From Microcaldota archaeon (GTDB lineage: Archaea; Micrarchaeota; Micrarchaeia; Micrarchaeales; CABMGC01): a DNA stretch of 39,046 bases. Made by a program: the position numbers and the translations under genes. Below the pieces are notes generated by a model. The model was given only the letters and a program-made list of their open reading frames with translations. It did no database searches and was not told where the DNA came from. The stretch covers positions 1 to 39,046 of the forward strand of contig JAJZLN010000025.1 of assembly GCA_021803425.1 (NCBI GenBank), in the 5' to 3' direction. This document shows positions 12,057-14,682 of this stretch, one piece after another. How positions within the stretch are numbered: the stretch's first letter is position 1; each line of letters opens with the position of its first letter.

Positions 12057-13814
12057 ATGCTGCATATCACCAAAAAAATAAGAAAGAGCAACGTGCAATC
12101 GGATTCAGTAACGAAAACCGTGGAGTGTAATCCATCTGACCAGACAATTGGCAGGGCCATACCACAAAGCATTGATTTTGGAAACCCTGCAGTCTATGAA
12201 CTTCTATCTTCAACTGCAAAAGCATATCCTAAAAATGAATGTGTATATTATAATGGCACCAAAATGACGTACGGCGAGGTGGACGAGGCTTCTTCAAGGT
12301 TTGCTTCTGCGCTGGCGTCCATCGGCGTGCAAAAAGGCGACAGGGTTGCAATATTTCTGCCAAACATACCTCAGTTTGTCATATCCTATTTCGGCATATT
12401 AAAGGCAGGTGCTACTGTAGTGCCCTGCAGCATAATGTATAAAGGGAGGGAGCTTGAACACCAATTAAGTGATTCAGGCGCGAATTTCATAGTAGCTTCA
12501 AAGGATGTCGTTAAGGAAAAGTCAAGGAAGGATGGCAAAAAAAGCAAGTCATACAACGATCTTTACAAACCAGTCGATGAATGCCGAAAAAACCTGGATA
12601 TTACTGTGGTGACAACAAGCGTTACTTCTTATCTTCCAGGGCTAAAGAGAAAGCTCTCAAGGCTTGGTGGCATAAGGAAAGTGGAAAGGCAAGGCACATT
12701 TGACTTTTCAAGGCTTATAAAATTAAACAAACCAATAGAACAACTGCCTGATGTAAAGTCAAGGGATGATGTCGCTGTGCTTCAGTACACTGGGGGCACA
12801 ACAGGTGTGTCAAAAGGAGCAATGCTCACTCACTACAATCTTTATTCAAATGCTGCATATGTTTCAATATCATTCCCTATGGCAAAAGAGGATGTCTCAT
12901 TGTGCATACTTCCGCTTTACCACATTTACGGCATGACTGCAACCATGAATTCCGCATTATATGCCGGGGCAAAAATCGTACTCCTCCCAAAGCTGCACCT
13001 AAAGGAGCTTATGAAGACAATACAGGACCAAAAGGTCACCGCGTTTTGTGCCGTTCCTGCGATATACGGTTTGATAAACGATAATCCTGAGTCAAGGAAA
13101 TATGACCTGCGCTCCGTGAGAGTATGCATGTCCGGCGGAATGGAGTTGGATGCAACAATACGCGATAAATTTGTGTCGCTTACCGGAGCAAAATTGGTCG
13201 AAGGATATGGCCTTTCCGAAGCAAGTCCGGTAACCCACAGCAATCCTTTGGATGGAAGAGCCGTAAAGGAGGGGTCGGTAGGCATTCCAATTACTGATAC
13301 TGAAGCAAGGATAGTTGATCCGGATGACCCTACAAAGGTACTTGCTTCAGGTGAAATAGGCGAGCTTGCAATAAAGGGCCCCCAGGTTATGAAAGGATAC
13401 TGGAACATGGAAGAGGAGACCAAGAGGGTTCTCAGAGACGGATGGCTTCTGACAGGAGATCTCGCAAAAGTGGATAATGCCGGATATTTCTATATAGTAT
13501 CGAGGAAAAAGGACATGATCAATGTTGGCGGATTGAAGGTGTATCCTCGTGAAGTCGAAAGCGTTCTGTTCGAAAACAATGCAGTAAAAGACGTTGCAGT
13601 AGTCAGCATGCCTGACAAATTCAGCGGAGAAGTAGTTAAAGCGTTTGTCGTATTGAAGGAAAACAATACGAATGTAACCGAAAAGGAAATAATCGAATAT
13701 TGCACAGAAAGGCTTGCCAAGTACAAGGTTCCAAAATCAGTAGAGTTTGTAGACGTGCTTCCAAAAAGCATGATAGGCAAGGTTCTTAGGAGGGAGCTCA
13801 GGAACGGCGCATGA
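12057..13814 (+). CDS. AMP-forming (long-chain-type) acyl-CoA ligase
   Basis: YTGGTTGVSKGAMLTHYN, GYGLSEASPVTH, DGWLLTGDLAKVD, PKSMIGKVLRREL. Confidence 0.93.
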   Translation: MLHITKKIRKSNVQSDSVTKTVECNPSDQTIGRAIPQSIDFGNPAVYELLSSTAKAYPKNECVYYNGTKMTYGEVDEASSRFASALASIGVQKGDRVAIFLPNIPQFVISYFGILKAGATVVPCSIMYKGRELEHQLSDSGANFIVASKDVVKEKSRKDGKKSKSYNDLYKPVDECRKNLDITVVTTSVTSYLPGLKRKLSRLGGIRKVERQGTFDFSRLIKLNKPIEQLPDVKSRDDVAVLQYTGGTTGVSKGAMLTHYNLYSNAAYVSISFPMAKEDVSLCILPLYHIYGMTATMNSALYAGAKIVLLPKLHLKELMKTIQDQKVTAFCAVPAIYGLINDNPESRKYDLRSVRVCMSGGMELDATIRDKFVSLTGAKLVEGYGLSEASPVTHSNPLDGRAVKEGSVGIPITDTEARIVDPDDPTKVLASGEIGELAIKGPQVMKGYWNMEEETKRVLRDGWLLTGDLAKVDNAGYFYIVSRKKDMINVGGLKVYPREVESVLFENNAVKDVAVVSMPDKFSGEVVKAFVVLKENNTNVTEKEIIEYCTERLAKYKVPKSVEFVDVLPKSMIGKVLRRELRNGA

Positions 13815-13850
13815 ACAAGCATTTTTGCAGCAGTGGCGATTTCTAGTAGC

Positions 13851-13855
13851 AAAAA
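13851..13855 (-). terminator. Oligo-T tract after tRNA-Ser 3' end
   Basis: Minus strand G73-TA-TTTTT. Confidence 0.45.
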
Positions 13856-13857
13856 TA

Positions 13858-13991
13858 CGCCAAGGTTGGGATTTCCAAAACTTTTGATAAATCCTTCAAA
13901 AGTCTGTTTGAACCCAAAAGGCCCGTGAAGGCCATACGCTTGCAGGAAATGTTTTCCAGGCGTACGCGATACCGGATTCCGCCACCTTGGC
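13858..13991 (-). tRNA. tRNA-Ser(GGA), apparently containing two introns (about 13 nt at 37/38; 35 nt at 59/60)
   Basis: Minus strand: GCCAAGG-TG-GCGG-AATCCGGTAT-CGC-G-TACGC-CTGGAA[AACATTTCCTGCA]A-GCGTA-T-GGCCTTCACGGGCC-TT-TTGGG-TTCAAA[CAGACTTTTGAAGGATTTATCAAAAGTTTTGGAAA]T-CCCAA-CCTTGGC-G. Acceptor 7/7 paired, D-stem GCG/CGC, anticodon stem TACGC/GCGTA, long variable arm, T-stem TTGGG/CCCAA. T8, A14, G18G19, A21, T33, T54T55C56, A58 and G73 all present. (Brackets show the T-loop intron shifted by A-tract ambiguity; the mature loop is TTCAAAT either way.). Confidence 0.88.
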
Positions 13992-14015
13992 ACGATAAGG
14001 TTATTCTCAACAAAG

Positions 14016-14027
14016 CTTAATAAAAAG
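14016..14027 (-). promoter_or_regulatory. Putative TATA box for tRNA-Ser
   Basis: Minus strand CTTTTTATTAAG about 25-36 nt upstream of the tRNA 5' end. Confidence 0.45.
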
Positions 14028-14082
14028 GTTAGTGTGTGTCGGAAGTTATTTATTGATGTCCAACAATATCCTGTTAGATAGC

Positions 14083-14682
14083 ATGACAAAGAGGATAGCA
14101 GTATGCATTACTGGGGCGTCTGGTGCAGCATATGCATACAGGTTCCTGGAAGAGATACATAATTCGGGAATCGCAGAAACCCATCTTGTTGTAACAAAGC
14201 CCGGGGCGATGGTGATAAAGCAGGAGCTGGGTATTGCTTCAAAAGATGTGGAGAAAATTGCGGATTTCAGCTATGACGAGCGCAATTTCATGTCGCCAAT
14301 AGCAAGCGGCTCTTTCAGGCTGGACGGATGCCTTGTATCTCCATGTTCCATGAAGACACTTTCAGGCATAGCACACGGATACGAAGAAAATCTTGTAATA
14401 AGGGCGGCATCAATAGCTTTAAAGGAGGGATGGAAGCTGGTTCTTATGCCCAGGGAGACTCCGTTCGGAATAATACAGATAAAGAACATGCTTGCTGCGG
14501 CAGAGGCAGGTGCAATAGTGATGCCTCCACTTCCTCAATTCTATTTCAGACCAAAAGATATTAATGAGATCATCGACATGACTGTCGGAAAGATGCTCTC
14601 CATTTTTGGCATTAAGAGCGAGCTTTCAAAGGAATGGGGAGTTGAAATGCGTGAGGAGACTGAGTATGCAAAGCATGATTAG
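14083..14682 (+). CDS. ubiX: UbiX-type flavin prenyltransferase
   Basis: MTKRIAVCITGASGAAYAYRFLEEI, LVSPCSMKTLSGIAHG, MPRETPFGIIQIKNMLAAAEAGA. Frame open to 14032. Confidence 0.93.
   Translation: MTKRIAVCITGASGAAYAYRFLEEIHNSGIAETHLVVTKPGAMVIKQELGIASKDVEKIADFSYDERNFMSPIASGSFRLDGCLVSPCSMKTLSGIAHGYEENLVIRAASIALKEGWKLVLMPRETPFGIIQIKNMLAAAEAGAIVMPPLPQFYFRPKDINEIIDMTVGKMLSIFGIKSELSKEWGVEMREETEYAKHD

Follow-up and report, generated by a model that had tools for sequence, protein, structure and literature searches.

The window, by which we mean the whole 39,046-nucleotide (nt) stretch of DNA that was analyzed, comes from a Micrarchaeota archaeon of the ARMAN lineage, whose assembly spans 0.88 Mb and is 93% complete. 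An interrupted tRNA-Ser(GGA) gene lies on its minus strand, in the gap between an acyl-CoA ligase gene (positions 12057 to 13814) and a ubiX-like gene. The features of the locus are as follows.

13858 to 13991, minus strand: tRNA-Ser(GGA) gene, class II, with two introns (134 nt of DNA, 86 nt spliced, G73 discriminator)
14017 to 14026, minus strand: TATA-like box, TTTTTATTAA, at positions −35 to −26
13954 to 13991, minus strand: exon 1, nucleotides 1 to 37 (mean identity to homologues, 0.91)
13941 to 13953, minus strand: 13-nt intron at 37/38, AACATTTCCTGCA, bulge-helix-loop type
13907 to 13940, minus strand: exon 2, from A38 to A59 of the T loop (3′ strand of the anticodon stem, variable arm, and 5′ strand of the T stem)
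13872 to 13906, minus strand: 35-nt intron at 59/60, CAGACTTTTGAAGGATTTATCAAAAGTTTTGGAAA, canonical hBHBh′ type
13858 to 13871, minus strand: exon 3, comprising T60, the 3′ strands of the T and acceptor stems, and G73 (mean identity, 0.89)
13850 to 13857, minus strand: T-rich stretch directly 3′ of the gene, TATTTTTG, a possible terminator; homologues are also T-rich downstream
13490 to 14089, minus strand: mechanically called open frame of 199 codons with a TTG start, covering the tRNA and the 3′ end of the ligase gene

Read on the minus strand, the gene contains an acceptor stem (GCCAAGG/CCTTGGC, followed by G73), a D stem (GCG/CGC) with GG in the D loop, an anticodon stem (TACGC/GCGTA), a 17-nt variable arm, and a T stem (TTGGG/CCCAA). 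The anticodon loop is 20 nt long (CTGGAAAACATTTCCTGCAA), and the T loop of the precursor is 42 nt. Excision of positions 13953 to 13941 and 13906 to 13872 leaves an 86-nt class II tRNA with a GGA anticodon, a long variable arm, and G73, the last of which is present in 123 of 124 homologues. This is the product that a preliminary description of the sequence had proposed, down to an intron of about 13 nt in a 20-nt anticodon loop and the 35-nt removal that restores the T-loop sequence TTCAAAT. The 199-codon frame was judged spurious because the conservation across this region is accounted for by tRNA exons and introns of variable length.

The same description had foreseen that gene finders would overlook the locus, and two of them did. 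Applied to the window, ARAGORN called only a tRNA-Val(CAC), and the Rfam tRNA model returned nothing at the locus, either locally or in a genome-wide search at E values of up to 1; when the cutoff was relaxed to 10, Rfam gave only chance matches there. ARAGORN assigned no score to the unspliced form or to a form lacking only the anticodon-loop intron, and it recognized the spliced 86-nt form as tRNA-Ser(GGA). A tRNA grammar in which both loops were of variable length produced a single hit in the window, namely this locus, its two inserts being 13 and 35 nt long; it gave no hits on either strand of 60 dinucleotide-shuffled windows.

Homologues of the locus are widespread. Matches to its DNA occurred in 87 of 98 related genomes, many of which terminate precisely at the 5′ splice site predicted in the T loop, the 3′ border of exon 2. 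An exact pattern combining the D arm with the interrupted anticodon arm, and requiring CTGGA, was found in at least 118 contigs; among the matches listed, nearly all contigs are from Micrarchaeota, including “Candidatus Micrarchaeum sp. A_DKE,” and some bins are labeled Marsarchaeota. Parsing yielded 124 distinct Ser(GGA) loci with a parser that required GGA, and this anticodon was also present in relatives recovered by similarity alone. The anticodon-loop insert occurs in all 124 homologues, ranging from 10 to 24 nt and mostly 12 or 13 nt in length. (A claim that 10 nt is a record for an anticodon-loop intron was dropped, as the known minimum was not found in the literature.) At the T-loop junction, 21 of the 124 homologues have an uninterrupted TTCAAAT and the rest carry an insert, such that the 59/60 junction initially proposed from the window coincides with a site at which the insert is precisely missing in nature. 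Nearly all of these T-loop inserts are 13 to 43 nt long, with one doubtful parse of 7 nt. Mean identities are 0.85 to 0.91 for exons, as opposed to 0.44 to 0.61 for introns and 0.52 to 0.55 for flanks. Upstream, a TATA box at about −30 is conserved, with A+T content peaking at 0.93 to 0.95 between about −31 and −29 (n = 121 homologues). In many relatives (e.g., L043, L046, L081, and L088), Ser(GGA) ends some 10 to 20 nt 5′ of the start codon of a protein gene, and the sequences suggest that the two are transcribed together in many of these genomes.

The two introns differ in structure. At 59/60, a 4-bp central helix (TTCA at 13912 to 13909 with TGGA at 13877 to 13874) has a 3-nt bulge on either side (AA^C and AA^T, each cut after its second base), the arrangement of archaeal bulge-helix-bulge (BHB) introns, and is followed in the window by a 10-bp inner helix (13905 to 13896 with 13887 to 13878). 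In the homologues, the central helix pairs in 99.5% of cells when in register but in 30 to 52% when the register is shifted. The two 3-nt bulges are likewise conserved, and inner helices have a mean length of 3.6 bp, as opposed to 0.65 bp in shuffled sequences. At 37/38, C32, T33, G34, and G35 pair with CCTG except for one U-U mismatch at position 33. Among the homologues, the four intron bases that precede the 3′ bulge pair with positions 32, 34, and 35 in 96 to 98% of cases, and about 70% have no pair at position 33. (One relative, L080, has C33 in place of U33 in its Ser(GGA), and the central helix of its precursor, CCGG/CCGG, is perfectly paired.) The inner helix at this site averages 0.52 bp versus 0.38 bp in shuffled sequences and is thus practically absent; a central helix and a 3′ bulge are present, and the 5′ bulge is merged into the loop. 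Because it lacks an inner helix, the 37/38 intron is assigned to the relaxed bulge-helix-loop type. The hBHBh′ fold noted at the outset, with its central helix, bulges, and 10-bp inner helix, is therefore borne out for the T-loop intron, and on the predicted structures it is the only canonical one of the pair.

The genome encodes enzymes suited to both steps of splicing. Its splicing endonuclease (383 amino acids) matches ARMAN-2 EndA (PDB 4FZ2) over its full length (E = 1e-148) and has the attributes of the ARMAN-type epsilon2 enzymes: a single three-unit chain of about 390 amino acids, a Tyr/His/Lys triad, and the lysine of the ARMAN-specific loop (ASL). Neither the catalytic residues nor the ASL lysine vary among 90 genomes of the order, one of which is that of the window. 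The window's genome also has an RtcB gene (E = 1e-163). According to reviews, enzymes of the epsilon2 type remove relaxed motifs efficiently (PMC6379350), and the ARMAN-specific loop touches the intron bulge (PMC12397907), so that, as judged from sequence, the anatomy of the gene and the type of the enzyme appear to fit each other. In the pathway we propose, the precursor transcript would form a bulge-helix-loop around the 37/38 junction and a bulge-helix-bulge around 59/60, the epsilon2 endonuclease would cut both inserts, and RtcB would join the exons into the 86-nt class II tRNA, which would read UCC and UCU.

We are highly confident that the locus is a working tRNA-Ser(GGA) gene, the only one detected in the genome, with two introns whose predicted removal gives the 86-nt product. 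The possibility that it is instead a tRNA pseudogene or remnant, with Ser(GGA) decoding performed by another tRNA, could appeal to the failure of standard finders to detect it and to the theoretical ability of Ser(UGA) to decode part of the UCN set, but it is very improbable given that the exons are conserved beside unconstrained introns and flanks, the loops are invariant, and the promoter is maintained among the homologues. Nor is there an evident substitute: an intact Ser(GGA) elsewhere, which the preliminary description had named as grounds for rejecting the gene, was not found by genome-wide tRNA and DNA searches of the 93%-complete assembly, in which the other serine tRNAs detected were Ser(GCU), Ser(UGA), and Ser(CGA). 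A different reading of the anticodon loop, in which the insert is cut earlier, after CTGG, to give CTGGCAA and hence tRNA-Ala(GGC), is the one that ARAGORN chooses once the T-loop intron is removed. It is ruled out to our satisfaction, and its probability is negligible, because GGA is constant in the relatives whereas the base that would serve as C36 varies; moreover, G73 and the long variable arm are features of serine tRNAs, and the genome has a separate Ala(GGC) gene at G000:C29.

Other tRNA genes of this genome are also interrupted. Ser(CGA), at G000:C5:7267-7401 on the minus strand (locus L391), is a second hidden class II tRNA that the Rfam search misses, interrupted near 30/31 by 13 nt and again in the T loop, at 59/60; the Ser(CGA) gene of a relative is 81% identical to the 3′ part of the window's Ser(GGA), intron included. 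Read by eye, Ala(GGC) (G000:C29:24314, L125) and Leu(CAA) (C27:18695, L123) have T-loop inserts, Leu(UAA) (C18:5837, L127) has a D-loop insert, and Trp(CCA) (C27:970, L126) has a long intron holding TGATGA boxes.

The T-loop intron appears to have been gained or lost repeatedly. At least nine changes of state are required among 77 scored genomes on a 90-genome endonuclease tree, which is based on a single gene with many weak branches, does not distinguish gains from losses, and includes two states entered by eye. Within the genus of the window, the intron is absent from three genomes and present in all others scored. Other orders of the class show either intron alone: families f11 and f26 have the anticodon-loop insert without the T-loop insert, and family f12 has the T-loop insert without the anticodon-loop insert. 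The anticodon-loop insert is also present in family f8.

A probable source of the T-loop intron is a dispersed hairpin of about 28 nt with the form AAACTTTT-nnn-AAAAGTTT-nATCAAAA, whose arms and tail covary in most variants. Where the arm TTTT is replaced, the tail is replaced as well in 7 of 9 cases, at loci that were in part selected by the motif. A 28-nt search pattern taken from the Ile(UAU) intron of the nearest relative (G001), with up to three mismatches allowed, recovered 47 copies in 32 of the 164 genomes of the order, and a close variant occurred in 51 of 295 genomes across the phylum. By ARAGORN tests, 23 of the 47 copies reside inside tRNA genes, 19 in the anticodon loop and 4 in T loops; the amino acid names that the program gives are unreliable for several copies because it misplaces the intron. 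Hosts include the 37/38 and T-loop introns of many tRNAs, the class II Ser tRNAs among them. In Thr(UGU) of one genus, the same site lacks an intron in two genomes and holds differing variants of the hairpin in others. Outside tRNA genes, copies are located immediately at the 3′ end of rRNA genes, both 16S and 23S, in several Micrarchaeota (L417:647, L440:201, L422:1501, and L408:1501), a setting confirmed by Rfam for L417 and L440, as well as downstream of genes and in open frames with pilin-like signal peptides. In L421, L423, L437, L446, and L477, the hairpin is in open frames just 5′ of a signal peptide of the QSAMEYLMT type, and it is in tandem in L421. Two viral contigs carry the hairpin, but no clear carrier element was found on them.

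In the nearest relative, the Ile(UAU) 37/38 intron contains the perfect 28-mer, and the Ser(GGA) 59/60 intron, 84% identical to that of the window, shares the element. The window's own T-loop intron would be a diverged copy, with only moderate similarity to the consensus (P = 0.001 by shuffles), and its likeness to the Ile(UAU) intron of its own genome, noticed by eye, is modest (about 1 in 1,000); for these two reasons, its membership in the hairpin family is graded as likely. The T-loop insert of an otherwise identical tRNA gene might be lineage specific, its resemblance to the hairpin reflecting convergence on an A+T-rich stem, as that moderate similarity would allow and as the many T-loop introns of other genomes that are unlike the hairpin might suggest. 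We consider such convergence unlikely, though it retains some weight: the same-site intron of the nearest relative carries the element, the perfect 28-mer occurs in a second tRNA gene of that relative's genome, and the reversed pattern, with equal ability to form a stem, had no match in the same 164 genomes. The T-loop intron therefore probably derives from a hairpin family that moves between the tRNA genes of Micrarchaeota. More tentatively, and with somewhat less than even confidence, we propose that the hairpin is a mobile sequence of Micrarchaeota that gives rise to new tRNA introns, both at 37/38 and in T loops, in class II tRNAs as well as in others. If it is mobile, its presence both in tRNA introns and at the 3′ termini of the 16S and 23S rRNAs would imply that it spreads by means of what the splicing endonuclease releases; splicing might, for instance, run in reverse, with the resulting RNA then being converted to DNA again.

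These features place Ser(GGA) in a known class, that of archaeal tRNAs with several BHB-type introns, and in a lineage already known for it. ARMAN-1 and ARMAN-2, in the accounts of Fujishima 2011 given by PMC4033280 and PMC6379350, have tRNA genes with multiple introns and an epsilon2 endonuclease; the system described here resembles them in phylum, endonuclease type, the coexistence of relaxed and canonical motifs, and the occurrence of several introns in a single tRNA. To this, the present analysis adds the distribution across 124 homologues, the exact absence of the T-loop intron in some of them, and the link to a dispersed hairpin. The transposed tRNA introns of Thermoproteales, as PMC4090602 and PMC4390854 relay them from Fujishima 2010, closely resemble one another within one lineage even when they sit in different tRNAs, at canonical and noncanonical positions alike. 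A shared intron of this type is seen in G001, between Ser(GGA) 59/60 and Ile(UAU) 37/38, whereas in the window's own genome the similarity is only moderate. Unlike in the Thermoproteales as portrayed there, the phylum and endonuclease type are different, class II tRNAs are included, and copies also occur outside tRNA genes (at rRNA 3′ ends, downstream of genes, and in pilin-like genes). A 2015 review described class II tRNAs as being without known translocatable introns (PMC4390854), but the Ser tRNAs of Micrarchaeota, which are of this class, appear from their sequences to carry them. The noncanonical introns treated by tRNAscan-SE 2.0 are similar in having BHB motifs at noncanonical positions and in occurring as multiple introns; according to PMC8450103, the program derives its BHB models from Crenarchaeota, Euryarchaeota, and Thaumarchaeota, and a text search of that article returned no mention of Micrarchaeota or ARMAN. 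What would take the present case further than the known class is the order-wide series of intron presence and absence, the apparently translocated class II introns, and a putative hairpin family found inside and outside tRNA genes.

The Ser(GGA) gene fills in a missing tRNA in an archaeal order whose genomes are known almost solely from assemblies, and its double interruption shows why such tRNAs appear to be absent from genomes. Nature provides this one tRNA in a large series of versions, some that have the T-loop intron and some that lack it, so that it becomes possible to measure how fast and how precisely introns are gained and lost. And because the hairpin copies outside tRNA genes could be their source, the shared hairpin renders the origin of archaeal tRNA introns testable.
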